Below, one piece after another: positions 2,223 to 22,637 of a stretch of DNA of 30,219 nucleotides. Source of the DNA: a virus; the IMG/VR virus record IMGVR_UViG_3300044941_000367, positions 1-30,219 of that record, one strand, 5' to 3'. Both the position numbers and the translations under genes were made by a program. Position 1 is the first letter of the stretch. The number at the start of each line of letters is the position of its first letter. Below the pieces are notes generated by a model. That model made no database searches and had not been told where the DNA came from. It was given only the letters and a program-made list of their open reading frames with translations.

Positions 2223-3992
2223 TTAGAAAGGAGTGGAGAGAATTTGATTTATTGTTGTTTGTTCTTCGCTATCAAGTTCTTGCTGAGCTGTTGGTGGCAT
2301 GCCGCCCAGTTCCATAAAGGCTTCAGGCGCCTGTCCAGCCGCTACCTTTTCTTGAAGCGCTTGCCCATAAGCAACTCCTCCAATTTTCTCAAGCTCTTGC
2401 TTTAAAGCATCAAGAGGAGACACAGACCCTACGTTGGCATTGGTTGGTTCTTTTGATTCAGGGCTGGGCTTCACCATGTATTTGCCCGGATCGTCAAAAC
2501 CAAAAGAAACAAGAAGATCGTAAAATAAAGTTTGCCAATCAAGCAACGCTGCAAACTGCGGCACACTTCCTGTGAGCGTGATGAAGTCTGTGATGAGCTT
2601 AATCTTATGGTCTCTGTTGATTAAGCTTTGAGTGGCTGTTATGCGCACCGTAAAGTCTTTGCGCAAATCTGATGGAAGAAGTTTGAAGTAGTCGTTTATG
2701 CCTGGTTTGGCTCCCTTCAACCTCACTGTTTTTTGTTTTGTTGTATTGTCTCTCAAAACTTTATAAGCCCTTTGCAACAAAGGCAAAACAAAATTTTTCT
2801 CAAACAAAGCAAACACATCAGTGAGACGGTTTCCGCCAGCTTCTTTCACTGACTGAATTTCCTGTGCTGTGACGCGCTCGCCACTTCGGTAGGTGTTGGC
2901 GCTGATCATAGCGCCTGTGCCAATGTTGCGATCAATTTTTGCATCCAACACAGCAGCTTCTGTGTAGGTGATGTTGAAGTTGTTGGCTGGCGGACGCAAG
3001 GGCGTGATGGCGTCTGGACGCCCCACAATAAGCACTTTCCCTGGCTCTGTTTTGATGGAAGTTGGATCAGTGATTCCATCGTCAATAAAAAGCCACATGT
3101 TGTCGACAGACACAGCAATGTTGTCTAGTCGACGGTTCATGAGAATGTTGTTTTCTAAAATGAGCCCAAAGCTGCTATCAATGAGCGAAATTCCATAGGC
3201 AGACTCGGGCGTTTCAAACAACATAGCTACCAGCCAAGGACACTCACTTAATCCTTCTTCTTCATGAAGAACTTGTTTGTTGCTAATTCTGTAAAGGCGA
3301 CCGTCTATTGGATCAAAAAATTCGCAAAGCTCGATGAAAGAAGAAGCTAGCGGAGATGGTAAGTCGTTCGCTAATTCTTTACTGTTTGGTGAAGTGGTGG
3401 AGAGCTTGTCAAAAACTGATTCAGGGTCTTCGTCTAGTTTGTTGAACAAACCAGACTCTGCCCAAGCAAGAAATTCTGCTTTGTTTAGCAAAAACTCTCT
3501 AAAACTGTAAGAAAATTTCGGACTATACCTCCTGCCAGTTTCCACATAAACGTGGGAGGCATTTAGGCACTCGAAAGCAAGCTTGTCTTCTTCACTGTCC
3601 CAAAAAACTCTCATGGCGCAAAACCCAGTTAAAAGAAGCTGAGTAGTCGCCACTCTTAGTTCTCTGTATAAGTTGCTGGCATTCAGGCAATCGCGAAAAT
3701 AAGCAGAAGCTAAAGGCACTATTTCGGCAAGCCCTGGCTCATTGCTTTCTAATTCCACCCAATAGTCTGAATGAAACAAGGCATTGCGAAAATAAGCACC
3801 CACTGTTTCAATTATTTCAAAAATGCGCCCATCGTTGAGCTTTGATTGCCAGCCAGAGTCATTGTTCAGCCGCAAAGGCTGAGTTTTGTATAAGCGCCAA
3901 AGCTCTGCCCATTTAGCATTCAGGGACGCTCTAGCTTGCCTTTCTGTTTCAATTAGAGAACACAACACATCGTTCTGCTCAAGGTTCAACAT
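2223..3992 (-). CDS. Portal protein (head-tail connector)
   Basis: At 589 aa it is slightly longer than T7 gp8. The N-terminal part has the helix-rich ERQARASLNAKWAELWRLY segment. Central residues (about 330-390) carry the VGRPDAITPLRPP and AEIQSVKEAGG-like stretches often seen in podovirus connectors, followed by a helix FALFEKNFVLPLLQRAYKVL. It begins 11 bp after the terminase stop and precedes the scaffold gene, the standard packaging-to-capsid order. The portal forms the dodecameric ring through which terminase pumps DNA. The start at 3992 has a weak GTGAG upstream. No defects are seen. Confidence 0.8.
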   Translation of the reverse strand: MLNLEQNDVLCSLIETERQARASLNAKWAELWRLYKTQPLRLNNDSGWQSKLNDGRIFEIIETVGAYFRNALFHSDYWVELESNEPGLAEIVPLASAYFRDCLNASNLYRELRVATTQLLLTGFCAMRVFWDSEEDKLAFECLNASHVYVETGRRYSPKFSYSFREFLLNKAEFLAWAESGLFNKLDEDPESVFDKLSTTSPNSKELANDLPSPLASSFIELCEFFDPIDGRLYRISNKQVLHEEEGLSECPWLVAMLFETPESAYGISLIDSSFGLILENNILMNRRLDNIAVSVDNMWLFIDDGITDPTSIKTEPGKVLIVGRPDAITPLRPPANNFNITYTEAAVLDAKIDRNIGTGAMISANTYRSGERVTAQEIQSVKEAGGNRLTDVFALFEKNFVLPLLQRAYKVLRDNTTKQKTVRLKGAKPGINDYFKLLPSDLRKDFTVRITATQSLINRDHKIKLITDFITLTGSVPQFAALLDWQTLFYDLLVSFGFDDPGKYMVKPSPESKEPTNANVGSVSPLDALKQELEKIGGVAYGQALQEKVAAGQAPEAFMELGGMPPTAQQELDSEEQTTINQILSTPF

Positions 3993-6290: not shown

Positions 6291-6848
6291 TTATTGTGGT
6301 AAGTTGGTTTTTCGTGTTTTTGCAAACTCACTAATTCCGCTCACAATTGCATCTGCTGCTTTATCTGCATTGTAAAGCCTCATATCTAGCTCGCTATCAC
6401 AAAAGCAAACCTCAACTAACACTGCTGGCGCTAGCGTGTGTTTAACAACAAACAACATATCTCCTCTCTTCACTCCTCTATTTTTAAACCCACACGCTTT
6501 ACAAATCTCGTCGCAAATTAGTTTAGCCACTCTCCTTCCTGTACTAGAAATGGCAAAGCACTCCGTTCCATTTGCCTGCTTATTAAAGCAATTGAAATGC
6601 AGGCTCACAAACAAATCCACCTTTTCTTTGTTTGCTTTCTCCACCCTCGCTCTCAACGACTCAGAAACAGACCTCACTGGACTTTCTGGCAAGCACCACA
6701 CCACTTCAACACCCAGCTTCTCTAGCCTCTCCTTGCACTTATCCGCTAGCTCTTTTGTGAGGAAGTCTTCAGTCGGAAATCGCGGAAATAAACCGCTGCA
6801 GCCAGTATCTGGCTTGCAATTGTGTCCTGGATCTAATCCTATCTTCAT
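6291..6848 (-). CDS. N-acetylmuramoyl-L-alanine amidase (Amidase_3), endolysin candidate
   Basis: With the ATG at 6848 the protein is 185 aa. A longer frame with a GTG at 6914 would begin inside a repeat hairpin, and the conserved domain starts exactly at MKIGLDPGHN, so the shorter start is preferred. Amidase_3 zinc ligands are visible as H9 (DPGH), E27 (PTEDFL) and H84 (SLHFN), with the catalytic glutamate at E146 (VEVCFCDS). The enzyme cleaves the amide bond between MurNAc and L-Ala in peptidoglycan. There is no signal peptide or cell-wall-binding domain. It precedes the terminase genes in a late leftward unit, so a lysis role is likely. A paralogue lies on the plus strand at 25317. Confidence 0.9.
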   Translation of the reverse strand: MKIGLDPGHNCKPDTGCSGLFPRFPTEDFLTKELADKCKERLEKLGVEVVWCLPESPVRSVSESLRARVEKANKEKVDLFVSLHFNCFNKQANGTECFAISSTGRRVAKLICDEICKACGFKNRGVKRGDMLFVVKHTLAPAVLVEVCFCDSELDMRLYNADKAADAIVSGISEFAKTRKTNLPQ

Positions 6849-6877
6849 CTGCTTTTTAAAACAAAGAAAAACACAAT

Positions 6878-6930
6878 GGGAACCCCGCGAAGCGGGAAGG
6901 GCCCCCACTTGCACTTGCTAGCAGGCCCTT
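6878..6930. repeat. Dispersed hairpin element, copy at amidase leader
   Basis: The element has arms AAGGGCC (6897-6903) and GGCCCTT (6924-6930) around a loop containing CTTGCTAGC. A second small hairpin, CCCGC-GAA-GCGGG (6884-6896), lies next to it, followed by the reverse complement of GGTTCCC at 6878-6884. The same arrangement occurs at 21653-21704 in the opposite orientation, inside a gene. It lies in the 5' leader of the amidase. Confidence 0.7.
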
Positions 6931-7017: not shown

Positions 7018-7407
7018 TTAAAACTCGTCGTCGTCTGAATCTGTTGGGAACAAACTAATTTCATCGCCATCACCTATTAAGCTATCATAGGAATTAATTG
7101 CGTGCCAAGTTAAGGCACTTACAATCCAGTTGTATTGGTCTTTTGTTGACTTTAGCCAACAATGTGTTAGAAATTCAGCCAACGCATTTACAGTGTCTAG
7201 CTGATACTTATCATCTTCTAGGTGCGGATTCATGACAACTAGACGATGTTGAACTAATCCTAGAAAAATAGTAGGAAGGTCTGAGTCTACTAGCTGATTC
7301 ACTATTTTAGCAGCATCATATAGCTGTTCCATTAAGTCGTAGTCAAATCTGCCAAAAGCAACTGACTTTACTGAATTTATAAAATCATAGTGGCTTATCT
7401 TTTCCAT
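7018..7407 (-). CDS. Hypothetical protein, 129 aa, acidic C-terminus
   Basis: Not recognised. The start at 7407 has GGAG nine bases upstream and looks real. The protein is mixed alpha-helical, with aromatic residues (YNWIVSALTWHAI near residues 92-104) and an acidic end, DSDDDEF. No membrane segment, signal peptide or enzymatic motif is visible. It is a single-gene unit: a strong terminator follows it and a long non-coding region with hairpins precedes it. It is the first gene after the duplicated upstream cassette, so it may be expressed early or strongly. Acidic small phage proteins are often inhibitors or DNA mimics, but nothing here proves that. Confidence 0.75.
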   Translation of the reverse strand: MEKISHYDFINSVKSVAFGRFDYDLMEQLYDAAKIVNQLVDSDLPTIFLGLVQHRLVVMNPHLEDDKYQLDTVNALAEFLTHCWLKSTKDQYNWIVSALTWHAINSYDSLIGDGDEISLFPTDSDDDEF

Positions 7408-7442
7408 AATTGTTTGCTCCTTCTTTTTTTGTTTTCTAGTTT

Positions 7443-7471
7443 CACTATAGCAAGCCTTACCAAGTTGTGCA
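7443..7471 (-). promoter_or_regulatory. Candidate sigma70-type promoter for the 129-aa gene
   Basis: On the minus strand TATAGT (-10, at 7448-7443) is preceded by a 17-nt spacer and TTGCAC (-35). This is a moderate match to the bacterial consensus, about 35 bp from the ATG at 7407. It shares the CTATAGTG core with other sites in the window. Confidence 0.4.
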
Positions 7472-7544
7472 AGTGCTGATTAATTAGTTTTTCTTATACT
7501 CCTCCTCTTTTACCACCTTCCTTTGCCAAACAAAAACCCAACTT

Positions 7545-7690
7545 GCAAAACTTGGCCCTAGAATCGCCTAGAAGGCCTCTGTTTTTTGCTGAATGGCCAA
7601 TCATACCTGAAGCAAATTAGAGGCGCCTTCTAGGGCCTTCTAGAGGCCTCTAATTGAACGTTTGAAAAGGCGGGGGGACTACTACTATAA
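7545..7690. repeat. Inverted-copy block A (left), matches 25045-25189
   Basis: A 146-bp segment whose reverse complement aligns with 25045-25189. The best-conserved core is 32 bp (7625-7656, against 25078-25109), with one mismatch, and contains the 12-bp palindrome TAGAGGCCTCTA. Flanking shared words are GCAAAACTTGGCC and AATCGCCT at one end and GGCGG, GGGACT and a TATA word at the other. The block is rich in GGCCT/AGGCC words, which could be protein-binding iterons. It is upstream of the leftward gene at 7407, just as the right copy is upstream of the rightward gene at 25317. Confidence 0.8.
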
Positions 7691-7859
7691 AAGCCAACCG
7701 CTTAGCCTTGTCTTATTTGACTTAAAACAAAGAACTAATTTATTTCCCCTGTCCGGTCTCGCTTCTGCCGCATGTGCTTTCATCAGCAACTGGCAGCGCA
7801 CTTTCTCTAGTTTGTTTTTCTTGTTTTGAGAAGAAGAGCTAGCACTTGCTTGTTTAGGA

Positions 7860-7901
7860 GCTAGTCCAAAAACAAACCCACCAGTTTGTTTTTGGACTAG
7901 C
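7860..7901. repeat. Perfect hairpin 1 of left array
   Basis: Left arm GCTAGTCCAAAAACAAAC (18 nt), 6-nt loop CCACCA, and a right arm that is the exact reverse complement. No T-run follows, so it is not a typical terminator. Confidence 0.9.
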
Positions 7902-7929
7902 AAATAGCAAGTGCTGGCTAGTTTATTGA

Positions 7930-7970
7930 GCTAGGACTAAGACTAACACTAAGTTAGTCTTAGTCCTAGC
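7930..7970. repeat. Perfect hairpin 2 of left array
   Basis: Left arm GCTAGGACTAAGACTAAC (18 nt), loop ACTAA, and an exact complementary right arm. It starts 70 bp after hairpin 1. Confidence 0.9.
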
Positions 7971-7986
7971 GAATAAAACAATTGGA

Positions 7987-8027
7987 GCTAGTCACGAGAC
8001 TAACACCAAGTTAGTCTCGTGACTAGC
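7987..8027. repeat. Perfect hairpin 3 of left array
   Basis: Left arm GCTAGTCACGAGACTAAC (18 nt), loop ACCAA, and an exact complementary right arm. The outer GCTAG and inner GACTAAC match hairpin 2, while the middle differs on both arms in a compensated way. Confidence 0.9.
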
Positions 8028-8078
8028 GAACAATAGGGAAAAGAAAGCAAGCACTTGCAAGAAAAAAAGAACAATAGA

Positions 8079-8119
8079 GCTAGTCTCATTAAGAGCTTGG
8101 CGCTCTTAATGAGACTAGC
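8079..8119. repeat. Perfect hairpin 4 of left array
   Basis: Left arm GCTAGTCTCATTAAGAGC (18 nt), loop TTGGC (GCCAA on the minus strand), and an exact complementary right arm. It is flanked by GCAAGCACTTGC and AGCAAGTGCTAG words. Confidence 0.9.
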
Positions 8120-8173
8120 GACTAGCAAGTGCTAGGTGGTAAAGCAAGCACTTACCAGAAAAACAATAAGGGA

Positions 8174-8212
8174 GCTAGGAAAAGACTAGCACTAAGCTAG
8201 TCTTTTCCTAGC
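8174..8212. repeat. Perfect hairpin 5 of left array
   Basis: Left arm GCTAGGAAAAGACTAGC (17 nt), loop ACTAA, and an exact complementary right arm. It is followed by AGCAAGTGCTAG and then the AT-rich segment. Confidence 0.9.
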
Positions 8213-8242
8213 GACTAGCAAGTGCTAGTTGTCTAAGCAATT

Positions 8243-8277
8243 GCTAGTTTATTTAATTAATAAAATAAAATACTAGC
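8243..8277. repeat. AT-rich segment shared in inverted orientation (left copy)
   Basis: Bounded by GCTAG and CTAGC, with TTTATTTAATTAAT in the middle. Its reverse complement is nearly the same as 24808-24845, except for a few inserted bases. It is the most AT-rich part of the intergenic region, so DNA unwinding (an origin or promoter region) is possible. Confidence 0.65.
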
Positions 8278-8849
8278 TCTTACTAGCACGTAGTTAGTTT
8301 GTTTGCTAGTCTATGCTTTGTTTTGTTTTTCACTTACGCTCGCATAGGCTTGCTTTCTTTCTTTCTTCTCCTTTCCGCTTGCTTGCTTGGTTTGGTTCTT
8401 TGTTAAAAGGCTGTAGCTAGCTGGTCTGGTTTTGGTTGTTTGTTAGTTATAAAATTTTCTTATAAAATGAGAACGAGCTGGTTTTTTCAGGCTTTTGTTC
8501 CTTTCTTTCCCCACTCTTGCACGCGCGTGCGCGCAATAGGGCACCAACCTCCTATTTCACAAAAGGAAAATTGGTTTTTGCGAGCTAGTGGGGAAAAGCC
8601 AACGCAAGCGAGAGCAACTAGTTTGTTGGTTTGTTTTTGGTGGCGAAATTTTGCTGAAGTAGTGTGGGGGCAGGCAGGCGCCAACTTTCCCCCCATCGAA
8701 ATTTGAGGGTTTTGTTTTTAATTCCGCAAGCAAAAGCCCATAGGCCAGTGGCAGCTGGTATGAGTGGGTTTGCCGCGGCTGCGACTAGCCCAGGCTTTCG
8801 TGCTTTGTTCTCTGTTCCTTTCCTTGTTGGAAAGCCCTAGCTTGTTTTG

Positions 8850-8946
8850 TGGAACACTGTGTTGGTTTTCTCGTTCTTCTGCAGCCAGCTCTTGCTTTAT
8901 TTAATCTAGCCCCAGCCAGCCTGGAACACCCTGTTGGTTTTCCTTG
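8850..8946. repeat. Imperfect direct repeat, 72 bp apart
   Basis: TGGAACACTGTGTTGGTTTT at 8850 and TGGAACACCCTGTTGGTTTT at 8922 differ at two positions. They lie within the low-complexity intergenic stretch and have no known role. Confidence 0.6.
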
Positions 8947-9416
8947 TTTGTTTGTTTGTGATTTGGCTTGACAGTGCAGCACTTGCTTGCTTGTGCTTGT
9001 GACTTTTTTGGTAAAGCAAACTAAGGCCTCAGTGTTTGCTTTGGCTTGGGCTTGCCTTGGTTTGTTTCGGAAATTAGGTTCCTTTGTTCTAAAAAGGAAC
9101 TTAGTTAGCTCTTGCCTTGTTTGTAAGGGGCTTTGCTTTATTTTGTTAGTTGGTTGGCTCTTGCTTAGCTTTTCCTACCAAGTTAACAAACAGGTGACTT
9201 CAAGCAAGTGATTGCAGCCCCTTGAGCACGAGCTGAGCTGAACTTAGTTTTCTTTTCTCTTGTGCGCGTGCGCAAGAGGGGACGAACTGAGCGTTTTGAG
9301 AAAAAATTTTGACAGCGTTTGCTTAGCCTTTGCTTGGATGCCCCTGGGGGGGATGCGAGCGAAAGCCAGTTAGCAAGCGGGCGCCAGAGGCGGACCGTGG
9401 CGCAAAGAAAATTAAT

Positions 9417-9531: not shown

Positions 9532-12291
9532 TTAGAATTTGCTTTTTCTTTGTTTGGAAGTGGTGTCAAACTTAATTCCTGCCACAGCAAAGTCTGGCGA
9601 TGCAGAGTCAGGAAACAAAAGAGCGAGTTGGAAGGCTTCGGCTGAGCCTGCTGCTTTAAGGCGGATGAGGGAAGAAGAGCCAGGTTGCGGGTGAGGGAGG
9701 AAAGCAGCATTAAGCAAGCCTTCGCCTAGATTTGTGGGTGAGCCAATAGAGAAAGAAAGCAGTTCGTCTAGAGTGTCGTCGTAGGTGGGGGAACAAAGCA
9801 CTATGCGAGCAACAAGCGTGCCGGAGCCTCTCACTATGAGGCTGAAGTGGCGAAGTTGGTAGGAGTGGTCGAACTTTGGACCAGAGAAGGCTTTTGTAAC
9901 GAGAGAACCTATGATAGGGAATTCACTCATTCCTCCTTGTAATTCAGAGATGAGGAAAGACGACCCGTCTGTTGATTGAGCGTGGTTGTAGCCTGGTGCT
10001 TGTTTGGCTTTGGGAGAAAAGAGCGAAATAAATTCAGCAGGTGTGGTGAGAGGAGAGCAATCAGTGGGAGTGGGTGAAAGTAAGAGAGAAGGTCCAGGCA
10101 AATCCACATTAAATCGATCGGAAAGGAGAGGAAGATCAACAAAGTCACGAGAGAGAGAGCGGTCCCACTCGCAAACAACAACCACTCCAGAAGGGTTGGG
10201 CGGGAGAGTGTAGGATTTAACAAAGAAGCCATCGAAAGTGGAGTTTAGCCAGATGGGAAGGCTTGTAGCGACTTTAATAGTGTAGAAGGAGCTTGAATCC
10301 ACGTGAAGAGCGAGCAATTGAGAGGAAGAAGCCCAATTAACAAGTATGCTACGAAGTGAGGGGCTCCAGACAATGGAGGATGGTTGTTGTTGGAGCCAGA
10401 ATTGACTAACGTGTTCGGAGAGCTTAATGGTTTCGTAGTTGTTAGTGGAGTCGTTGAAAGTAAGGGCAAACAAACCACTTTCAGAAGCAAAGAACAACTG
10501 ATTGTCAAACACACAAAAGCCTTCAGAGTTTGGTCGTTCTAAGCTAAAGAAAGCGGCTTGTGCATCAGTGGCAGAGGGAGGGTTTTGGGAAGATGATGAG
10601 CCTTTAATTTGAAAAATTCCTTTGTCTGAAGAGGCAAACACTACGCCATTTAGGGAACTAATTCCCTTCACGTTAGCGCAATTGAGCTTGATGGAGAAAG
10701 CAGAAGCTTGGTTAAATTCAATTGTGCTCACTTGTAAGTTGTTGAAGCTGATGCTTCGATATGACCAGTCACTGTGGGAAAAAGCCACAGTATTGTCTCG
10801 GCCAGCAAGAATGAGACGATTCCCTACAACTTTAACAATGAAGGGATAGGAGTGGTTGATGGTGTCAGCAATGCTGTTGTAGCCATAGAGGGGGATAATC
10901 CAGCTATCGCCGATCTCAATGCTACCGTCAGAGGGGTTAGGTTCTAGGTCAACAACACTGGTAGACCAGCTAGAGCGCCAAGGTGTGGAGAGAATGAGCT
11001 CTACAATGGCATCAGCGCTAGTGCCTGGGTTGCGATAGCCTGGCAGAGAAGGATCGTAGTTTGCTGTGGAGAAGAACGAAGCTGAGCCAGAGCTTATAGG
11101 AGTGCCATTGGAGTCGTGGAATGTGGGGAAACTTAGTTGTTTTTTATCCACAAAAATTTTCATTTCGCTAATGGGAACTAGCAAGCCATTGCCCAACAAA
11201 ATCTTGCGAAGGCGGCAAAACAACAAAGAAGAAGGAGCATTGCCAGTTTGAAGCCCACCGAAAGCCACAAATGCTGGCGATGGGTTGGTTTGTTGAGCTG
11301 GGGTTGTAATTAAGTAGGAGCCATTAGAAAAAGCCCATTCATCCGAGTTGAGTGGGAGGTTGTTTTGTTTCCAGGTGTAGAGGGGGGCTGCAGCATTTGG
11401 AGGGTTTGATTTAAAAACAAGAAGAGATGGAATGTCAATGGGCTGACTTTGTGGTTCGTTAATGATGGGGTTGTCAACAAGCGTGGGTGGGACTGTTACA
11501 TTCACATCAAGAGGAACAGAGTTTTTCCTCACAGCAGAAAAAGACAAGTAAGAGCCGGGATAGTAGTTAGCATCGGCGAATCGGAGCCAGTAAAAGGCAT
11601 GAAATTTGATTGTTTGTCCCACCTCTGCCCAAGAAAAGCTAGAAGCAGAAGTGAAGGTGATGGTGTTGTTGTTTTGCGTAACAGAAGTGGGGCGATGGAG
11701 AAAGCTGGTTGGGCTCCAAATGCAGCAATTTAGGTCGGACAAAGAGTTGTTTTTCGGCCATCCGTCGATGGTGAACTGAATTGTTTTTTGGTCTGAGGAA
11801 AGAGACACCACATTTCCTCGTCTAATCAAACAACAAAAACTGACTAGAGGAGAGGAGGGTGTGGCGATAAGCACATGACCGTGGTTGTTATCAGCAACCA
11901 GGTCAAATGTGGCGGTTTCATTTAAACTTTCTAAGCGAAAGCACTGGCTTTTAAAAACAAAAGAACGATAGATGCCTTCATAATTAATGCCAGAAAGAGT
12001 GAGTCCGGTTCCGTTTCTGACAATAACGTAGTTTTCGTTGTCTAGAACGAACCTAAATATTTGGAAAGCCACGTCATGATTCACATTACTAATCAAATTT
12101 GTGACTTTACTTCCACATCGTTTCCTAATTTCTTTGTTTTCATCCACGTAAGCATTGGTGAGTTTGTCAAGCCAGATGGGATCAATGGTTGTGTTGAGAG
12201 TGGCTGAAGACAAACCTTCAAATGCTGACACAATAGGAGTGTCGGGATCTGGCGTTAGTTGTTTTGGAGTGATGGGCTTAATTGGTTTCAT
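9532..12291 (-). CDS. Tail tubular protein B-like (gp12-type nozzle)
   Basis: A 919-aa protein rich in Ser, Pro and Asn, with beta-strand-like segments throughout and no membrane helix. The N-terminal region has LDKLTNAYVDENKEIRKRCG (residues about 41-60), matching the T7 gp12 pattern of a short segment ending in 'kRpG' near the start, which is typical of nozzle proteins. It follows the internal virion protein gene by 14 bp. In T7 the order is 11-12-14-15-16; here gp12 comes after the internal proteins and away from gp11. A terminator-like hairpin follows it. A tail fibre or other large virion protein is the alternative. Confidence 0.6.
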   Translation of the reverse strand: MKPIKPITPKQLTPDPDTPIVSAFEGLSSATLNTTIDPIWLDKLTNAYVDENKEIRKRCGSKVTNLISNVNHDVAFQIFRFVLDNENYVIVRNGTGLTLSGINYEGIYRSFVFKSQCFRLESLNETATFDLVADNNHGHVLIATPSSPLVSFCCLIRRGNVVSLSSDQKTIQFTIDGWPKNNSLSDLNCCIWSPTSFLHRPTSVTQNNNTITFTSASSFSWAEVGQTIKFHAFYWLRFADANYYPGSYLSFSAVRKNSVPLDVNVTVPPTLVDNPIINEPQSQPIDIPSLLVFKSNPPNAAAPLYTWKQNNLPLNSDEWAFSNGSYLITTPAQQTNPSPAFVAFGGLQTGNAPSSLLFCRLRKILLGNGLLVPISEMKIFVDKKQLSFPTFHDSNGTPISSGSASFFSTANYDPSLPGYRNPGTSADAIVELILSTPWRSSWSTSVVDLEPNPSDGSIEIGDSWIIPLYGYNSIADTINHSYPFIVKVVGNRLILAGRDNTVAFSHSDWSYRSISFNNLQVSTIEFNQASAFSIKLNCANVKGISSLNGVVFASSDKGIFQIKGSSSSQNPPSATDAQAAFFSLERPNSEGFCVFDNQLFFASESGLFALTFNDSTNNYETIKLSEHVSQFWLQQQPSSIVWSPSLRSILVNWASSSQLLALHVDSSSFYTIKVATSLPIWLNSTFDGFFVKSYTLPPNPSGVVVVCEWDRSLSRDFVDLPLLSDRFNVDLPGPSLLLSPTPTDCSPLTTPAEFISLFSPKAKQAPGYNHAQSTDGSSFLISELQGGMSEFPIIGSLVTKAFSGPKFDHSYQLRHFSLIVRGSGTLVARIVLCSPTYDDTLDELLSFSIGSPTNLGEGLLNAAFLPHPQPGSSSLIRLKAAGSAEAFQLALLFPDSASPDFAVAGIKFDTTSKQRKSKF

Positions 12292-12305
12292 ACAAACGAA
12301 CCTTG

Positions 12306-15300
12306 TTAAGGAAGATTTTCGTGTTGATGAGGAACAAAGCTTCCACTTTGTCGAAGCGCTTCACAAATAGAGCAGTTTGAAACAAAGTTCTCTTCAATGG
12401 CTTTATTTCTTGATTGTCTTTCAAAGCTGTTGGTTGGGCCTGCACCTGGAATAGAGTATTTGCGTCCGGCCCATTTACCAAGCAAAGAAAGCTCGTAGCC
12501 GAACGTGGTGCCAAGGTCGTTCATGCGCAACTTGAATGGGTCGCCTCCATCAATGATGTATTGGCGCATGTTTTTGCCGCCAAGGCTTCGCAAAGGAACA
12601 GTGCCTGCTCTTGTTAAGATCCAGAAATCTGCAATGGAAGCACGATGGCCTTTCTTTTTCAAAACGTCGAACCAACCTACTTTTTTGTAGTAATCAACAA
12701 CCATGCGGAGCTGTTCTTCAAAAGACTTTGAAGCTGCTGTTGGGTCGTCAAATCCAATAATGCCTGATATTCGTCCGCCATGGCGTTTGCGAATGTCCCA
12801 CCCACATTCTTGTTGAATTATGTCCGCTAACCATTCAGCAGGAATTTGGAGAATTTTAGCTGTATCAACAAGAGCTCGTCTCCAGTTTGGTTTGTTTTTG
12901 AGAACTGCATAGTTGTAGTGGTTGTTGTAGTCATATGTTATGTTGTTGCCTCGTGTGAAGGGCATAACAGTTTTGCGCAAAGGCTTTTGCGCACTAAACA
13001 CAGATTGAGCAGGTACTGGTGGGGAATTAACAGCTTGATAAGTGTTAGCTTGGAACGCACCTTGATTAATCACAAACGCTTGCATTGGTGCTTTTAGGTG
13101 GGGGTGTGTGCGTGCAAACGCTACATTCACGCGTGGAGCCACCACATTAGAATCAGATACAGAGAGTTTCTTTAAATGGTCAACGGGATCAACCACACCA
13201 TCCCAACCAAAACTCGGTATGTAGTTGCCTTTTTTATCCACAGAATAAGATTTCCTCACTTCAAAATGGAGGTGCGGTCCACCAATGTTGGTGCCGCTAT
13301 TGTTGCTGTAGCTTATAATTTGACCGGCCTTCACTCTCTGACCAGTTTTGACAAGCGCACCTTGGTGAGCGTAGCGATAAATGTAGCCGTTGTCCCCGAT
13401 GATATCAACGAAATCTCCATAGCCATCGGCTCTCCCAACGTAAGCAATTCCGCTCACTAAAGCCACAGCTCTTTCATTTCCATCCACGCCAAAGTCAACA
13501 CCAGCATGGCGGCGACCACCTGATCTTGTTGCGCCAAACCCGCTAGTAATAGGGGCATAAGCTCCGGCTGCAACAGGAGAAATAATTGTGGTGCCATCAA
13601 CTTTTAGTTGTTGTAGACGAGCTCTAGGAGCCACACGCACCCTTCCGCGCTCGTCCACGTCGGGTGCAAACGTGGACGAGCCGTCAAAATTTGGCTGCAC
13701 TCCATAAGGAGGGGGCAGAAAAAGTCGTTGTTGTTGCTCATTAATGTATTTGAGAGCGTTGTCTAGTTCTTTCTGATAGAGGTCTTTGTTGCGTTTGGCA
13801 ATTTCGTTGATTTCGTTTTTAGGACGAAGAAGACCTGCTTGTTCAAGATGCGGGTAACGGGCTATAAGCTCTTGTCGTTTGGTGTTGGCTTGTTGAATTA
13901 TGGCATTCTGCACTTGCGTGATGGCATTTTGCTCTAGAGTAAGAGCTTGGTCTAGAGCCTTCATGTCTATTTCTTCATTAGGCCTGCTCAGCTTACTAAC
14001 AACAATGCCATAAAGCTCAGGAGCGTTTTGCTGAAGTTGGTTGAGCAGCTCAATGTCGCCCGGAGAAAGCTGTCCTTTGCTATTCCGTGTAGCGAGTTGT
14101 TTGATTAGTTGAGCCATGTCGCTGGCTCTTCGAAGATTAAGTCTTGCAAACGACACATTCAAGCCAGCAATTTCAGAGTCAAGCTTCGCTGCGTCTTGCT
14201 CGTATTTTGCATATTCTTCAGCAAGAAACAATCCAGTTTTGATAGCTGGGTTCTCGGCGTATGGAGAAGCCTTTAAGTAAGAGGCGTAGAAGGGATTGGA
14301 TATTGCATTAGCTGCCACCCAAATGGACAAAGAATCAGAAAATTTATATTGGGAAGCAGATAACTTGGCAGCTTCTTCCTGTAGCTTTTGACGAGACAAA
14401 GCTAATTCTGCTGTTTCTTTTTGTAGTTTCTCAGCCTCATTAATTTTAGCCACGTTGGCAGTCCAATCCCCATACTTGATTGAGGCAGCGCCAACCTTAG
14501 CCTTAAACACATCGTAGTTGTTGTAGTCGCGAGAAGAAGGCAGCCTAAATTCAAGCAGTGCCTTATTGTATTCTTGAATGAATTGTTGGAAATTGTACAA
14601 GTCTGCGTTGTACTTTGCGTAGTTTTCTGCTTTAATCCCGTAAGCTTGCGTTGTTTGCCTAATAATTTTCGCAGCAATGTTGAGCTTCTGTTCTTCAGTG
14701 AGCGTGTTTTCAGAAGCGAGGAAAGACTTAAGCTTTTCGCTAATTTGATCAAGCCAAGGTTTAGCTTGTTGTGTTACGCCAGCTTTCTTTATGTTTGCAA
14801 ACAACAAAACTAAATCTTGTTCTAAGCCTGCTTCAATCACGTCAGCTCTTGCAGCTTGCTGGCGCTCCACAGCCTCTGCTAATTTTCTCTGCCGAGAAGA
14901 AGCCACTTGTTCCGCTACTTCATTTATTTTGCTAATCAGCTTAATCCTGTCTTCTGGTTCGAGAGAATCTGATTCAGCAATTATGCGAGTTGCTGCGTCT
15001 CTAAATGACTGAGCTCCTGAAACTACATTTCCTTTTTCATCGACTAAATCTCGATTAAAGCCATTGCTTTCATAGTAGTCTTGAATAAGTTGGCCTAATC
15101 GAGACAAAGCATTTTCGTAGTTTTGTTGCTTTTGAAGTTTTTGTTGTGCTTCTATTAATTTGTTTTTGTTTTGTTGCTGATAAGCAAGAGTTTGGAGGGC
15201 TTTCTCAGCAAACTGCGCCAATGCAGAAGGCTTAGCTGCTGCAGCAGCTTGTGTGGAAAGCAATTGCTGAGACAGTTGCATTAGGCGCTCATTATTTTGC

Positions 15301-15443
15301 AAGGCTGTGTCTAGAAATTTTTGGGTGCTTTGTTGCACCGCCAATGAAGACCCAAGCGCTTTTTCTAAAGTTTTGGCTGGTTCATTGAGAAAGTCTGCAA
15401 CCAGCTCATCGCTACCAATAAAACGAGAATTTAACAAAGACAT
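12306..15443 (-). CDS. Internal virion protein with M23 peptidase and lysozyme-like domains
   Basis: This 1045-aa protein has a long helical, coiled-coil N-terminus (residues 1-575). An M23 metallopeptidase domain spans about 625-730, with H646 and D650 (HAGVDFG), H693 and H724 (GPHLHFEV), the usual zinc and catalytic residues. The C-terminal region resembles a soluble lytic transglycosylase: IPAEWLADIIQQECGWD, with E879 as the likely catalytic acid, then SGIIGF (893-898). T7 gp16 carries only a transglycosylase, so this combines two peptidoglycan activities in one probably ejected virion protein that opens the cell wall during DNA entry. It starts 4 bp after the previous stop. The M23 call is firm; the lysozyme-like call is moderate. 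Confidence 0.85.
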   Translation of the reverse strand: MSLLNSRFIGSDELVADFLNEPAKTLEKALGSSLAVQQSTQKFLDTALQNNERLMQLSQQLLSTQAAAAAKPSALAQFAEKALQTLAYQQQNKNKLIEAQQKLQKQQNYENALSRLGQLIQDYYESNGFNRDLVDEKGNVVSGAQSFRDAATRIIAESDSLEPEDRIKLISKINEVAEQVASSRQRKLAEAVERQQAARADVIEAGLEQDLVLLFANIKKAGVTQQAKPWLDQISEKLKSFLASENTLTEEQKLNIAAKIIRQTTQAYGIKAENYAKYNADLYNFQQFIQEYNKALLEFRLPSSRDYNNYDVFKAKVGAASIKYGDWTANVAKINEAEKLQKETAELALSRQKLQEEAAKLSASQYKFSDSLSIWVAANAISNPFYASYLKASPYAENPAIKTGLFLAEEYAKYEQDAAKLDSEIAGLNVSFARLNLRRASDMAQLIKQLATRNSKGQLSPGDIELLNQLQQNAPELYGIVVSKLSRPNEEIDMKALDQALTLEQNAITQVQNAIIQQANTKRQELIARYPHLEQAGLLRPKNEINEIAKRNKDLYQKELDNALKYINEQQQRLFLPPPYGVQPNFDGSSTFAPDVDERGRVRVAPRARLQQLKVDGTTIISPVAAGAYAPITSGFGATRSGGRRHAGVDFGVDGNERAVALVSGIAYVGRADGYGDFVDIIGDNGYIYRYAHQGALVKTGQRVKAGQIISYSNNSGTNIGGPHLHFEVRKSYSVDKKGNYIPSFGWDGVVDPVDHLKKLSVSDSNVVAPRVNVAFARTHPHLKAPMQAFVINQGAFQANTYQAVNSPPVPAQSVFSAQKPLRKTVMPFTRGNNITYDYNNHYNYAVLKNKPNWRRALVDTAKILQIPAEWLADIIQQECGWDIRKRHGGRISGIIGFDDPTAASKSFEEQLRMVVDYYKKVGWFDVLKKKGHRASIADFWILTRAGTVPLRSLGGKNMRQYIIDGGDPFKLRMNDLGTTFGYELSLLGKWAGRKYSIPGAGPTNSFERQSRNKAIEENFVSNCSICEALRQSGSFVPHQHENLP

Positions 15444-15447
15444 AGGA

Positions 15448-16500
15448 CTAGAGAGATAGGGTTAGGGGTTTGTTAGGAGAAAGCAGGTTGTAGGTGTTGT
15501 AGGCGCCCAGCGCCACGTTTGCATAGTCAAAAAACCCTGGACGAGAAATTAGTTGTTTTTGTGCTTCAAGAGTTTCTTTTGACAAAGTGTTGCCGAGAGC
15601 TAGCGCCTGCTCATTTACTTTCTGTTGCAAGTATCGGCTCTTTTTCTGAATGTCTGAAGCTAACAAAGACACATCGAAGTTTGTTTGGTTTGCCAGGCGT
15701 TTGCCCTCAGAAATAATGTTGGACAAGCGCTTAGACAGCTCTGCCTCTCTTTGTAAGTTTTGCAACCTAGCATTAGAGTCAAGCTCTTGCGCGTTTGCTT
15801 CTAACAAGCCCATATCAGCTAACAAAGTTGCTAGTTGTTTAGTTAGTTGGGCTTTGTTTTCTTTATCTGAAAGAGTGAGGTTTTGTTGTTCCTGAGCTCT
15901 TTTAGAAGCGAACTCATTTCTTAGTACATCGTATTTGTCTGTGTCAAGCAAAAGAGAAAGGGCTTCATTTATTCCCCCTTGAGCTGCTGCTGCATCTAAC
16001 AAAGAAATTAAGGAATTTCGTTGTTCGTCTTTGCTAGCTGAAGCGTCAATTAGTTGCTTTAGCAGAGCATTATTTGTGTCGGTTGATTCTTTAATTGCAG
16101 CAATAAGTTCTTGTTCAGCTTGTTGCTGTTGTTTTTGTTTAAGTTCTTCTGCGCTAAGCCGTTGCTTCGAAACAACTAATTTGTCTTTCAAATTTTCCAC
16201 AGACGCTGCCAATATTGCATTGTCTGCAGCATTTTGATTTACAAGCTGTTGAAGTTTAAGTTGGCTGTCAGTAGCTAAAAAATTTTGCCTAGCTGCAGCT
16301 TCAGCCAATGCATCGTTTAGGTCGCTAATTGCTTGTTGTTGTTTCAAAGCAAATAGTTGTAAGTCGGCTTGAAGTTGTTGTTGTCTTTTTTGCTGGTCTA
16401 GAAGTTTTCGTTGGGCTTTAGCTTGTTTTTGTTTCTGGTTGAGGGAAGCCAGCCCTCCGACAACTGAAAGTCCGGCTCCTATAGCTGCTGTTGCTCCCAT
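15448..16500 (-). CDS. Coiled-coil internal virion protein (gp14-like)
   Basis: A 350-aa, Gln/Ala/Leu-rich protein. The first 20 residues are hydrophobic and glycine-rich (GATAAIGAGLSVVGGLASL), like a membrane-inserting helix, followed by about 250 residues of predicted coiled coil. T7 gp14, the small core protein that forms the outer-membrane part of the ejection channel, has a comparable glycine-rich hydrophobic start. The neighbouring large hydrolase virion protein 4 bp downstream supports the ejectosome call. Two CCACTAT words lie upstream (16513-16545) and may belong to a late promoter. There is no sequence-level match that would prove the family. Confidence 0.6.
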   Translation of the reverse strand: MGATAAIGAGLSVVGGLASLNQKQKQAKAQRKLLDQQKRQQQLQADLQLFALKQQQAISDLNDALAEAAARQNFLATDSQLKLQQLVNQNAADNAILAASVENLKDKLVVSKQRLSAEELKQKQQQQAEQELIAAIKESTDTNNALLKQLIDASASKDEQRNSLISLLDAAAAQGGINEALSLLLDTDKYDVLRNEFASKRAQEQQNLTLSDKENKAQLTKQLATLLADMGLLEANAQELDSNARLQNLQREAELSKRLSNIISEGKRLANQTNFDVSLLASDIQKKSRYLQQKVNEQALALGNTLSKETLEAQKQLISRPGFFDYANVALGAYNTYNLLSPNKPLTLSL

Positions 16501-16510
16501 AGACTAAATT

Positions 16511-16546
16511 AACTAATTCATAGTGGGCTTTGTTCAGAATATAGTG
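16511..16546 (-). promoter_or_regulatory. CCACTATA motif upstream of virion block
   Basis: Minus strand TTTACCACTATATTC and, 25 bp nearer the gene, CCCACTATG. It is placed 15-45 bp before the ATG at 16500 and shares its core with sites at 6950, 7441 and 29903. Whether host or phage polymerase would use it is unknown. Confidence 0.3.
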
Positions 16547-16562
16547 GTAAAAGCTAAAAAGT

Positions 16563-16634
16563 GCAGCAGGGCCCCACTAGCTTTTGCTAGCGGCACCTGC
16601 AGCAGGGCCCCACTAGCTTTTGCTAGCGGCACCT
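16563..16634. repeat. Dispersed GCTAGC hairpin element, two tandem 36-bp copies
   Basis: Two copies, 16563-16598 and 16599-16634, are identical. Each folds as CAGG...CCACTAGC-TTTT-GCTAGCGG...CCTG. It lies between the polymerase stop and the virion block. The outer arm pair CAGG/CCTG differs from AGGG/CCCT at 22668 in a compensated way. Confidence 0.85.
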
Positions 16635-16656
16635 GGGAGCAATTTGTAGGCACTTT

Positions 16657-18729
16657 TTATTTTGCTTCAAACCAGCTTTCGCCCACATTCCATTCACCGT
16701 GGATTCGTATGCCGGGCAATAGGTCCATCCTATTGTTCCATATGTGGTTTAGTTCGTTCTTTAGGAGGTCTGCATTTTCTTCTTTGCATTCCACAACAGC
16801 TTCATCGTGTATCACGTTGACTAGCTTGCCTCCGTGTTTTTCAATCACTGGGAGGCTTTGAACAAGAAGAATGTGCAGAATGTCTCTGGCTGTTTTTTGA
16901 ATGAGCCAATTAAAAGCTTGCCGTTCTCCTCTTCCTCTAATCCAAGGTTCTTCGGCAAGAAGCTCATTATACACGCCTCTCCCACCAAAAGGATTGGTGA
17001 GATAGGCAGTTCCTTCCTCCCTTCCTCGCTTGCGAGCAGTTTTCCAAACTATTTGCTTTAATTGTGCAATAGCTGGCTGCGACTCTTCCACAGCTTTAAA
17101 TATGCGTTCGGCTTCTTCAAGTGACTGCACCACGCCCATGGAAAGTAGTCGGTTTGGACCTCCTCCATAGATCAGCATGAACAACACACTCTTCGCCACA
17201 CTTCTTGGGATGCCCCAAAGCTTAGCGTTTTCGCCATGCACATCAAGGCCTTTGTTGCACGTACGCAGTAGGTTGTAGTCGCCGCAAACTTTAGCTAAAA
17301 ACCACGCCAGCACCACCACTTCTATGCGGTCGAGGTCAGCAACTAGAATTTTATTTCCAGGCTCTCCAGTGTAGAGTTGGCGAAATCTCATGCCATAGTC
17401 GTGGGGAGTTCGATAGTCTGGGTGTTTGTCATCAAAAGGCCGCGGCATGTTTTGCATGTTGGGGTTTCGTGTGGCTAGCCGGCTCGTTCGGCTGCCGTGT
17501 TGGAAGAAATCACAATGAATTCTTCCATCAGTGCCAACGAATTTTTTCAAACCCTCCACCATGGTTGCATATTTTTCGAGCTTAATTAATTTAGCGAAGG
17601 GGAGGTGGTCTGGTAAGTCGTCGGCTATTTCTTTGAAAAAGTCTTTGTTTAAGGAAGGCTTGCCAGTGCTTGTTTCTCTAGCCCGGCTTAATAGTTCTGG
17701 CGCCTCCTTATTTAAAATCCACCACAAATGACCAGTTGCCGCCTGACTATTAAATGGGTAAAGTTTGCAGTGGTCATAAACAACAGAAGGGTCGGAAGCT
17801 ATTATTTGCCCTTCGTTGTCCACATAAAAACTTGCATAGGATTTGTTTTTGCTTCTTCCTTTTTTATAAATGGTTTCTTTTGGCACAAATGCTTTTGTTT
17901 CTTCGTCCCACTCTAATTTAGGCAACAAAGGATAGCGGGCTTGTATTAGTGCATTGGCTTTCTCAATTTCTTTCTCTAGCTGCGCTTTTAAATCAGCAAG
18001 GCGATTTTCATTTACGTGGAAGCCTTTAGTTTCTAGGTGGCTCAACACTTCCACCATGGGCATTTCTAATTTCAGTAAAGTTGGTATTAGTTGTGGGTTG
18101 TTGTTGTACCAACGAACAAGCCTCTTATAGAGAAAGTAGCAAGCGCGTAAATCTTGAAAGCAATACGCTTTCATAAGATCTAGCACTTGCTGGTTGTTTG
18201 TCCAATCTTGCTTCCAGAAATCTTCTATGTTGTTTGGACAATCAATGCCCGCTTTTGCTAGTTCGTCAATTAAATTTTGCTTCTGATTAGTTAAAGCTTC
18301 CAAGCTGTAGCTTGGTAAAGTAGGGTCTTGGAGATAAGCCATCATTTGAGTGCAGAGCTTCAGAGCGTTTCTCTTTAGCTTGAGTCCTCTGATTTTCAAC
18401 ACAGAATAGTCAAATTTCAAATTGTGGGCAATTAGGGTATAGTTTTCGTTTGTTTTTTCTTCCAAGAAAGCAATTGCTTTTTCGGTTGAAGAGAAATGAA
18501 AGAAGGTTTTTGTGTCTCCGTCAATAAGCAAACAACAAACCATGTAGAGCGGAATGTCTTTGTTCCACTTGGCATCTAAGTTGGCCGCTTCAACATCAAG
18601 AAACAACAACTTATCTGTGGGCAGTTGAATGGAATTTTTTGTTGGTGGGCCGCTCGCTGTTGCTAGAGTGGGCCCTACTACAATAGCTGATCCCTTTGAT
18701 TTGATTTGAGTTGATTTTATAGTACGCAT
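16657..18729 (-). CDS. polA: Family-A DNA polymerase (T7 gp5-like)
   Basis: At 690 aa it is close to T7 gp5 (704 aa). The 3'-5' exonuclease shows D45/E47 (LDVEAAN), HN..FD (102-107) and Y189...D193 (YCFQD). The polymerase shows motif A with D465 (VADLDRIE), motif B R509-K513-F517-Y521 ending in YGGG, and motif C HDE (641-643). It replicates the phage genome with the helicase upstream. Phe occupies the position equivalent to E. coli 762. The first about 35 residues precede the conserved exonuclease and are partly encoded by a repeat element. The frame overlaps the upstream endonuclease gene by 119 bp, and the ATG at 18729 has GGTGA before it. Confidence 0.95.
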   Translation of the reverse strand: MRTIKSTQIKSKGSAIVVGPTLATASGPPTKNSIQLPTDKLLFLDVEAANLDAKWNKDIPLYMVCCLLIDGDTKTFFHFSSTEKAIAFLEEKTNENYTLIAHNLKFDYSVLKIRGLKLKRNALKLCTQMMAYLQDPTLPSYSLEALTNQKQNLIDELAKAGIDCPNNIEDFWKQDWTNNQQVLDLMKAYCFQDLRACYFLYKRLVRWYNNNPQLIPTLLKLEMPMVEVLSHLETKGFHVNENRLADLKAQLEKEIEKANALIQARYPLLPKLEWDEETKAFVPKETIYKKGRSKNKSYASFYVDNEGQIIASDPSVVYDHCKLYPFNSQAATGHLWWILNKEAPELLSRARETSTGKPSLNKDFFKEIADDLPDHLPFAKLIKLEKYATMVEGLKKFVGTDGRIHCDFFQHGSRTSRLATRNPNMQNMPRPFDDKHPDYRTPHDYGMRFRQLYTGEPGNKILVADLDRIEVVVLAWFLAKVCGDYNLLRTCNKGLDVHGENAKLWGIPRSVAKSVLFMLIYGGGPNRLLSMGVVQSLEEAERIFKAVEESQPAIAQLKQIVWKTARKRGREEGTAYLTNPFGGRGVYNELLAEEPWIRGRGERQAFNWLIQKTARDILHILLVQSLPVIEKHGGKLVNVIHDEAVVECKEENADLLKNELNHIWNNRMDLLPGIRIHGEWNVGESWFEAK

Positions 18730-19048
18730 ACTTCACCAGCTCTATTACAATTTCTTCCTTCACCATTATAGACGAAAAACAAAAGACTTGATATCCGTGC
18801 ATTTGCGCACGGTTTAGCTTGGTGTAGTCGCGCTTTACACCATGAGCAGTTCGGTGAGCGCTAATCTTCCAGCTTCCTGTGCCTCCATTTATCTCAATAA
18901 GAATGTTGGTGCCTGTAATTCGAAAATCAAACACATAGGGGCGTTTGAGTCCTCTAATGCGATGGTCTTTAAATTGCGACTCAAGATAGAGGTCGGGAGC
19001 TAGTTTGCTCCAAATTTCACTAAATTTTTGTTCAAGAGAAGATTTCAT
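18611..19048 (-). CDS. VSR/DUF559-like endonuclease
   Basis: A 145-aa protein with a PD-(D/E)XK-type core: D41 (YVFDFRI), E52 (LIEINGG) and later KLNRAQMHGYQVFCF (about 77-91). These match a family of small phage nucleases with the pattern DF...EI.GG...K.N.....GY.V..F. The usual lysine of ExK is not present; Asn sits at that position, as variation in this family allows. It lies between helicase and polymerase, where T7 keeps genes for recombination endonuclease I, so Holliday-junction or host-DNA cleavage is possible. The last 30 residues run across the repeat element inside the polymerase overlap and are probably not part of the conserved fold. Confidence 0.7.
   Translation of the reverse strand: MKSSLEQKFSEIWSKLAPDLYLESQFKDHRIRGLKRPYVFDFRITGTNILIEINGGTGSWKISAHRTAHGVKRDYTKLNRAQMHGYQVFCFSSIMVKEEIVIELVKYAYYKINSNQIKGISYCSRAHSSNSERPTNKKFHSTAHR
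18645..18686. repeat. Dispersed hairpin element inside pol/endonuclease overlap
   Basis: On the minus strand CTATTGTAGTAGGGCCC aligns with CTATTGCAGTAGGGCCC at 22668 with a single difference. The following CTCTAGC...GCGAGCGGCCCAC corresponds to the rest of that element. Arms GGGCC/GGCCC can pair. It is translated in both overlapping frames. Confidence 0.7.
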
Positions 19049-19060
19049 ATCGTGATTGCT

Positions 19061-21106: not shown

Positions 21107-21121
21107 AAGGTTAGTCCTCCT

Positions 21122-21862
21122 TTACCGCACTATCATTGTACCATAGCCTAAGCGAGCTAGCCAAAGAAGAGAGAAAAACAAAGAAGAAGGCAAATGGCTG
21201 TCTAGAATTGGGTCTAAGTCGAAAAGCTTGGTAATTGCAAAAGCAGCTTGTGAAGCACAAGTGAAGGGCAGATGAAACTTAATTTCATTTTGTGTTTCAC
21301 TAACTAGCTTCATTGTGCCAGGCTTCAAACTAAAATCAATTAAAAGCTCGGTTGGCTTAAACTTTGCTCGCTTAAATTTTAGTTGCTCTTGCAAACAAAC
21401 ACACCAAAACCCAATCAAATAAGAAACACAAGCCTTCACATCGAGTTTGCGATTGTTGAGAAAGTCTTGATCAAGCATGAATTTGGCTGCTTCTAGCCTT
21501 TCTTGTTGTTCTTCTGTCTCGCAAACACCTTCAATAATGAAAACAGCCTTTACGAGTGGGTGAAAGAGAATGGTTTCGTTAAATTCGTATTTGCTACAGC
21601 CTTCCAAACTCACCTCATACACCCAATTGTCTAGAACAACTGCACAATGTGTGAAGGGCCTGCTATCAAGTGCTAGTGGGGGCCCTTCAGCAGAGCTGGT
21701 TCCCCTACTGGGAGCAGGCTTGCCAAAGCATTTGGTGTAAGTGGTCACAAACCAACCCATCACCTTATCTAACAACGACCCACTGCGGTCTGGTTTAAAA
21801 AACAACACCATAAAGTTATTTGAGCGGTGGTTGTTGCTATTCAACGCAATCGTCTTGTTCAT
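21122..21862 (-). CDS. Possible permuted NlpC/P60-like (papain-fold) protein
   Basis: With the ATG at 21862 (GGAGAAG upstream) it is 246 aa. An ATG four codons earlier lacks a ribosome site. Residues 69-79 (RPFTHCAVVLD) and 199-209 (PFTCASQAAFA) look like the His-first, Cys-late order of circularly permuted NlpC/P60 proteins, H72 and C202 being candidate catalytic residues. Such proteins hydrolyse peptides or lipids. The frame overlaps the previous gene's stop by 26 bp. Residues about 49-68 come from a repeat element inserted just before the His motif. The fold is suggested by two short motifs only and needs profile comparison. Confidence 0.4.
   Translation of the reverse strand: MNKTIALNSNNHRSNNFMVLFFKPDRSGSLLDKVMGWFVTTYTKCFGKPAPSRGTSSAEGPPLALDSRPFTHCAVVLDNWVYEVSLEGCSKYEFNETILFHPLVKAVFIIEGVCETEEQQERLEAAKFMLDQDFLNNRKLDVKACVSYLIGFWCVCLQEQLKFKRAKFKPTELLIDFSLKPGTMKLVSETQNEIKFHLPFTCASQAAFAITKLFDLDPILDSHLPSSLFFSLLWLARLGYGTMIVR
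21653..21704. repeat. Dispersed hairpin element inside a coding gene
   Basis: Arms GAAGGGCC (21653-21660) and GGCCCTTC (21681-21688) enclose TGCTATCAAGTGCTAGTGGG, followed by GGTTCCC at 21698. The minus strand of 6878-6930 has the same series with near-identical loop and spacing. The element keeps the reading frame of the gene it sits in. Confidence 0.8.
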
Positions 21863-22637
21863 TTTCTTCTCCATTTTGTTGGTTTGCTTTTGCTTCCAAA
21901 TAAGAATTGAGAGGCACGTTAATTATGTAGTAGCCGTCTAGAAAATTGTCAATGGCCATTGCCGCCTTTTTTCTCGTGCTTAAGTTCCACGACGGCAACG
22001 ACTTCATCAAGGTGTTAAATAAAGCCTGGAATTGTCCTTCTGACAACGAAGATTTTTGTTGATATTGTGCTAAGAGCGTAGGTAAGTCGTTTTCGCCTAC
22101 TTTGTAGTCGTCGTCATGCACGTCGCGAAACTTCTTATAAACAATGTAACATTGAAGCAAATCTCTCAAGTACTTGTTTGAAAACATTCCGTGATAGGTT
22201 GAGTGTTTGGGCATTTTGCGAAGCTCTAGCCCATCAAACACCACCTCTCGCCAATCCACATTAAAAGCTATTTGCAGGCCTTTAGCAAACAAGTAGCGAG
22301 GCAGGTAATTGCGAAAATTCAGCAGAAATTTTTCAGCATCTGGTTTTTTGTCCATTCTTATAAAGTCAATAAAATCTAGCGCTGCTTCTTCTGCAATTGT
22401 TTGGGCAAATCTGCCCTTTCGTTTGGCTAAAATTAACAAGCCAACAATCGCGCCTTTTAGTGCATCGTAGTTAGAAGTGGCAATTAAATTGGTTGAACGA
22501 ATGTGAAAATAAACCTGCTCAAACCTAATAGGGTAGATGCACAAATTTATAAAACAAAGAACTTTGTGTTTGGTGTCAAGAAGGTGTGGGTTTTTCCTGA
22601 TGATTTCATCGCGAATGATTTTGTTGTTGTAGTGCAT
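21837..22637 (-). CDS. Hypothetical protein, 266 aa
   Basis: Not recognised. The ATG at 22637 follows GAGGATACG. It is an alpha-helical, basic-to-neutral soluble protein with a charged C-terminus ending in EENEQDDCVE. There is no signal peptide, transmembrane helix or nucleotide-binding motif. Aromatic-rich parts (RNYLPRYLFAKGLQIAF near residue 108) suggest a globular fold. It stands between RNR alpha and the possible cysteine hydrolase, among replication genes, so an early or middle function is likely. Its end overlaps the following gene, which indicates coupled translation. Confidence 0.75.
   Translation of the reverse strand: MHYNNKIIRDEIIRKNPHLLDTKHKVLCFINLCIYPIRFEQVYFHIRSTNLIATSNYDALKGAIVGLLILAKRKGRFAQTIAEEAALDFIDFIRMDKKPDAEKFLLNFRNYLPRYLFAKGLQIAFNVDWREVVFDGLELRKMPKHSTYHGMFSNKYLRDLLQCYIVYKKFRDVHDDDYKVGENDLPTLLAQYQQKSSLSEGQFQALFNTLMKSLPSWNLSTRKKAAMAIDNFLDGYYIINVPLNSYLEAKANQQNGEENEQDDCVE

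Follow-up and report, generated by a model that had tools for sequence, protein, structure and literature searches.

Perfect hairpin arrays in two control regions of a Saffermanviridae-like cyanophage: a possible replication-origin or control module at the DNA level

Five perfect hairpins of one geometry and with different arm sequences stand close together in non-coding DNA of a cyanophage, and the question raised by this locus is what such hairpins do, if they do anything, and how arms that differ from copy to copy stay matched. The sequence analysed (the window, that is the whole stretch of 30,219 bases of a virus record) belongs to a Saffermanviridae-like cyanophage according to PHROGs and tblastn, which also located capsid, portal, tail, DNA polymerase and primase-helicase genes. 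Its terminase is about 40% identical to those of Cyanophage PP, Pf-WMP3 and Anabaena phage A-4L, and a family A DNA polymerase together with the primase-helicase gives it a T7-like replication set. Bacterial genomes searched for relatives of the terminase and for the GGCC element described below gave no match, so no host is named. The reading favoured here, tentatively and with a probability of about 0.4, is that the hairpins belong to a DNA-level module of a replication-origin or control region, with a layout that resembles the hrs of baculoviruses.

Hairpins and control regions of the window

The window has two large stretches of non-coding DNA, here called regions A and B, and each contains one of the hairpin clusters (Table 1). 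Region A is placed between two leftward, co-directional operons, the downstream one comprising a 129-aa gene (7018-7407), amidase, terminase, portal and capsid. On the leftward side of region B there is an operon of RNR, primase-helicase, DNA polymerase, internal and tail proteins, and on its rightward side an operon of amidase, Cas4-type exonuclease and others. One N-acetylmuramoyl-L-alanine amidase gene is found behind each control region (two genes, 6291-6914 on the minus strand and 25317-25907 on the plus strand). At 9532-24263 (minus strand) DNA polymerase and primase-helicase share strand and block with tail and internal virion genes, in a block order that differs from PP and Pf-WMP3. 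A short 501-aa protein (22758-24263, minus strand) matches the ribonucleotide reductase large subunit in some parts only and is 87% identical to its counterpart in the related genome G002, far above the conservation of the adjoining genes. Another small intergenic repeat family is represented by a tandem 36-bp unit, TGCAGCAGGGCCCCACTAGCTTTTGCTAGCGGCACC, at 16562-16635, and similar sequences are dispersed in relatives (G002 near 16835-16858, L036 near 2962-3002).

Table 1. Coordinates of the control regions, hairpins and associated elements in the window
Feature	Position	Strand	Description
Region A	7408-9182		non-coding control region; contains H1-H5
GGCC element, region A	7546-7668	-	downstream of the hairpins, towards the 7018-7407/amidase/terminase operon
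Putative -10 hexamer TATAGT	7685-7690	-	predicted; about 30 nt before the GGCC element
H1	7860-7901		18 bp stem, loop CCACCA (6 nt)
H2	7930-7970		18 bp stem, loop ACTAA
H3	7987-8027		18 bp stem, loop ACCAA; 5-bp block unlike H2 in both arms
H4	8079-8119		18 bp stem, loop TTGGC; loop inverted relative to H2/H3/H5, flank orientation kept
H5	8174-8212		17 bp stem, loop ACTAA
AT-only run, region A	8248-8272		GCTAG/CTAGC-type ends on both flanks
Region B	24264-25316		intergenic, between leftward RNR...DNA polymerase and rightward amidase/exonuclease operons
H6	24635-24675		18 bp stem, loop TTAAC; GCAAG ends
H7	24726-24766		18 bp, loop TTAGT; GCAAG ends; one compensated change relative to H6
AT-only run, region B	24813-24840
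H8	24931-24971		18 bp stem, loop AACAA; GCTAG ends
GGCC element, region B	25043-25114	+	ahead of the amidase/Cas4-type exonuclease operon

The first-pass annotation had described five perfect inverted repeats at 7860-8212, with arms of 17-18 bp and loops of 5-6 nt, GCTAG...CTAGC at the ends and differing interiors always matched by the partner arm, and all of this was confirmed, as was the non-coding character of the array (no long ORF spans H1-H5). Its statement that the loops tend to read ACTAA or ACCAA holds for H2, H3 and H5, and for H4 when TTGGC is read as GCCAA on the opposite strand, but not for H1. That no T-runs follow the hairpins is true in substance, with one weak terminator-like call on the minus strand (8119-8079). 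Three further hairpins are located in region B, where H7 falls within a 91-bp tandem duplication. An assembly artefact, which the same annotation named as a possible refutation, is excluded because different versions of the hairpins occur in independent contigs from other metagenomes.

Such stems are not expected by chance. Eight perfect stems of at least 14 bp were observed in the window as compared with none in 200 dinucleotide shuffles of its whole length, in which the longest stem reached 13 bp, and none of this size appeared in 2000 shuffles of 7408-9182. Folded as single-stranded DNA, each hairpin gives -19 to -21 kcal/mol (z -8 to -11), and pairing in the window hairpins is complete (143/143 base pairs). 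Watson-Crick pairing was found in 409 of 410 stem pairs, with almost no G-U-type pairs, as is required for a DNA structure on both strands, a count biased by a finder that sought perfect stems. The loops begin with TT or end with AA, in both orientations, in 20 of 25 hairpins versus 25% of control loops; the corresponding p value near 1e-8 is overstated, since related hairpins are not independent. Outer inverted repeats round each hairpin were not above chance for most of them.

Conserved order and the change of arms and loops

Relatives whose terminases are 64-77% identical to that of the window carry comparable arrays in the matching regions, namely G001 (both regions), L011, L031, L036/L028 and G002 (region B), and contig L013 breaks within an array. 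In the distant Mastigocladus phage CHP58 hairpins were found at 5620, 10517 and 10791, near two intergenic regions. Two hairpin loci per genome are present in the window and G001. When read towards the downstream operon, the order is the same: an AT run, the hairpins, a conserved GGCC/CTAGAAGG element and the operon. This order is observed in both regions of the window and of G001, in region A of L031 and L036 and in region B of G002, and some regions have one or two additional hairpins ahead of the AT run. Region A of L011 agrees with it, the sequence ending before any AT run, and so does region A of CHP58, where the AT stretch is AT-rich, not AT-only, and contains the most AT-rich 30-mer of that phage. 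On the other hand, no perfect hairpin of at least 9 bp occurs anywhere in the genomes of PP, A-4L, TR020 and Pf-WMP3, Pf-WMP4 has only two, of 9 bp, both in late genes, and L032 (terminase 65% identical) has no hairpins upstream of its terminase. The Saffermanviridae isolates PP, Pf-WMP3 and A-4L do have, like the window, a non-coding region past the terminase block (the site of the most AT-rich 30-mer in PP and Pf-WMP3), but neither such hairpins nor an AT-only run or GGCC element were found in them. When phage and plasmid collections were searched with the DNA of the array, the only match was that of the GGCC element in CHP58, and protein scans for further region A or B loci revealed no new hairpin-bearing ones.

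AT-only runs of at least 22 nt number two in the window versus 0.025 per shuffled window, two in G001, one each in G002, L031 and L036, and none in the isolates. Among all 30-mers of the window, the two with the highest AT content fall exactly in regions B and A. The AT-rich unwinding element looked for in a replication origin is present, in the form of AT-only runs that are unique to regions A and B in the window and recur in relatives. The GGCC element, which lies about 240-690 bp from the AT run, is rich in CTAGAAGG half sites, which together with the AGCANNTGCT dyads that also exist are candidate initiator binding sites; between the window and L031 the element is 93% identical over 123 bp (genes about 65-71% in DNA), and between region A of the window and CHP58 it is 74-76% identical. 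Its pairing comes without covariation (a term of about zero), so the element is read as a protein-binding DNA site, and its interpretation as a structured leader RNA was dropped. CHP58 has two copies of this element, which is more conserved than the genes, and three contigs in which no hairpins were found (L105, L107, L109) carry it near a thyX-like gene; it is possibly a common cyanophage protein-binding site.

Consensus promoters in both control regions are no more numerous than expected. In region B of the window and region A of L036, TATA-like hexamers occupy the outer sides and are directed away from the hairpins; with such outward hexamers and a position between two divergent operons, the hairpins of region B may well be untranscribed. 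Terminator-like sites number 3 in region A (3.1 expected) and 6 in region B (1.4 expected), AT-rich repeats being among the latter.

As for the arms, 82 of 89 pairs in orthologous hairpins are unchanged, six are changed on both sides and one has lost pairing, and between paralogous copies seven pairs are changed on both sides and none is lost, in counts where decayed copies are under-represented because near-perfect stems were sought. The unbiased alignments contain one decayed hairpin in region B of G001 and further hairpins that one relative has and another lacks, and the number per region varies from 1 to 6. Changes may involve whole blocks of both arms, as in H2 versus H3 and in region A versus region B of G001, and a wider stem in L031, G002 and L036 also changes in pairs (CGGAAG/CTTCCG versus CATGAG/CTCATG). 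In flank orientation, the loops of H4 and H8 (H8 being compared on the minus strand, on which its flanks correspond) differ from those of H2, H3 and H5 by 5 mismatches when read directly and by 1-2 when inverted, and the loops of the first two hairpins of L031 look mutually inverted. Template switching is reported to rewrite both arms at once and invert the spacer (PMC8794818, PMC8604942), giving multi-base compensatory changes in single events (PMC8794818) and arm homogenisation with spacer inversion (PMC8604942). Judged from the alignments, the inverted loops between unchanged flanks are a footprint of template switching, and the paired changes suggest hairpin formation, present or past, in the course of replication. 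Paired change alone is no proof of selection for structure, since template switching rewrites both arms. The earlier claim that structure and not sequence is maintained consequently stands only in part: in relatives most arm changes are paired and the same regions again contain hairpins, but template switching also pairs changes, and hairpins are gained and lost. The comparison with relatives proposed to check it came out likewise, with six both-side changes to one loss, and one decayed hairpin in G001. The case for a function rests on two other points: the hairpins keep their place and order from phage to phage, and the remainder of the genome has few such stems.

Two observations concern the ends of contigs. 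At the contig ends of G001 (L024 1-1219, L025 8891-10673) almost the same sequence is found in regions A and B, in stretches that run in opposite directions, which suggests an exchange between the two control regions. The G002 contig has tandem repeats at both ends (L026 1-150, L027 17880-18004), and its assembly probably broke inside region A at these repeats.

Origin or control module and its rivals

It is proposed that regions A and B are most likely two versions per genome of an origin or of a combined origin and transcription switch. In such a module the GGCC element would bind a protein, the AT run would be the unwinding site, and the hairpins, extruded as cruciforms or formed on exposed single strands, would serve as a structure-specific landing site for an initiator, primase-helicase or single-strand binding protein. 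Rewriting of the arms, and the upkeep of their perfect match, would be due to template switching across the hairpin, and selection would retain some of the hairpins. A protein blind to arm sequence and orientation would explain both the variable arms and the loops facing both ways. Several features support the origin reading: the ordered module with its AT run, the divergent operons on either side of region B, the mixed loop orientation, the T7-like replication set and the minimum of cumulative GC skew at 7807, within region A. The skew minimum of CHP58 (5097) is beside its region B, but the signal fails in G002 (20244), is weak and at 4-fold sites largely follows gene strand. To our knowledge no replication origin has been mapped in these phages. 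Against the origin reading it can be said that the isolates PP, A-4L, TR020 and Pf-WMP3 replicate without such hairpins, that the AT run-GGCC spacing is unlike compact iteron origins, that the GGCC element also stands beside thyX in contigs without found hairpins, and that paired changes are explicable by template switching without function. A more specific version, in which a replication protein binds the loop-biased (TT.../...AA) hairpins by shape, with any arm sequence and in either orientation, in two regions per genome, while template switching at the same forks keeps the arms perfect, is regarded as rather doubtful. No protein could be tied to the hairpins by structure models of two candidates (pLDDT 64 and 57): a 145-aa nuclease considered as cruciform resolvase had a poor model and matches all with E above 0.001, the best, weak one being a homing-endonuclease catalytic domain, and the model of a 266-aa protein considered as initiator was too poor. 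The role of DNA site for a replication protein, listed by the first-pass annotation, comes close to the favoured reading as a putative function.

The strongest rival is that the hairpins are an unselected by-product: where forks stall in non-coding DNA rich in AT and CTAG, template switching would keep making short inverted repeats, perfecting and inverting them, and the hairpins would mark a site of replication stress without doing anything. The mechanism is documented (PMC8794818, PMC8604942) and would account for the inverted loops of H4, H8 and the L031 pair, the both-arm block changes, the variable hairpin number and the decayed copy in G001. It explains less well why the hairpins occupy the same place, from AT run to GGCC element, in phages with the layout, why all of them are perfect in the window and why such stems are rare elsewhere in the genome, though AT-rich non-coding DNA is common in phages; on balance it is thought unlikely, if serious. 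Fold-back elements that spread are disfavoured, as the hairpins stay in the control regions (all window stems of at least 14 bp and 10 of 15 of at least 8 bp). A role in RNA, also listed earlier, either as RNase III-type processing sites or as stem-loops that stabilise leader or intercistronic transcripts, would suit the stable stems, the preferred loop composition and region A, which could be read through from one leftward operon to the other; mixed loop orientation inside one array, the divergent setting of region B, the scarcity of G-U-type pairs (biased by the perfect-stem finder) and an Rfam search with no family match at gathering score make it improbable.

A genome-end, packaging or concatemer-resolution site, with hairpins formed or cut in concatemer processing, is considered even less probable. 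It would suit region A, which is next to the terminase block and whose counterpart in Pf-WMP3 and A-4L lies close to the end of the genome, and relatives are reported with terminal repeats (PMC10140849); but the module is repeated in region B, at an internal position distant from the terminase, and no terminal repeat is visible in the window. Very little can be expected of transcription terminators or insulators between operons, for while the stems are strong and region A divides two co-directional operons, its U-tracts are not beyond chance, the divergent region B needs no terminator and five tandem stems are excessive. Least likely of all are hairpin promoters of N4 type for a virion RNA polymerase, also suggested previously. 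The window, too, is a podovirus-like phage in which DNA hairpins stand ahead of operons, but in N4 promoters the stem is about 7 bp long and has conserved bases, and the loop has 3 bases (PMC4496689), none of which was found in the variable 17-18 bp stems with 5-6 nt loops described here, and the group is reported without an RNA polymerase gene (PMC6129581). A search with the phage RNA polymerase family PF00940 gave no match anywhere, the controls being likewise silent.

Known systems and meaning for the phage group

T7-like origins are AT-rich non-coding stretches near promoters. We know of no hairpin arrays as a feature of the T7 origin. The window resembles such origins in its AT-rich non-coding stretch, T7-like polymerase and primase-helicase, and differs from them in that no phage RNA polymerase is reported for its group. 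Closer in layout are the baculovirus hrs, proposed origins and enhancers for which secondary structure has been suggested as the recognised feature (PMC6669502): both have several non-coding, AT-rich palindrome loci per genome. However, hr palindromes are about 30 bp long, imperfect and share a sequence bound by IE1, whereas the present ones are perfect and their arms differ between copies; the viruses are unrelated and the likeness is an analogy, not membership. Palindromic or double-hairpin elements of mitochondrial genomes are likewise clustered between genes and optional among relatives (PMC7218506), but they are read as mobile, and the phage hairpins are confined to control regions with a fixed order of AT run and GGCC element. 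No description of this hairpin layout was found in open-licence papers, in agreement with the first-pass annotation, which knew of no such phage system; as far as could be found the architecture is undescribed, and the function given to it is putative.

In T7, the phage RNA polymerase primes replication and drives late genes. The present group is reported without a T7 RNA polymerase, so the way its replication starts becomes a question for which the conserved module is a testable candidate. Because selection and template switching both leave paired changes, these loci also offer a clean natural case for telling selection on DNA structure from template-switch mutation.
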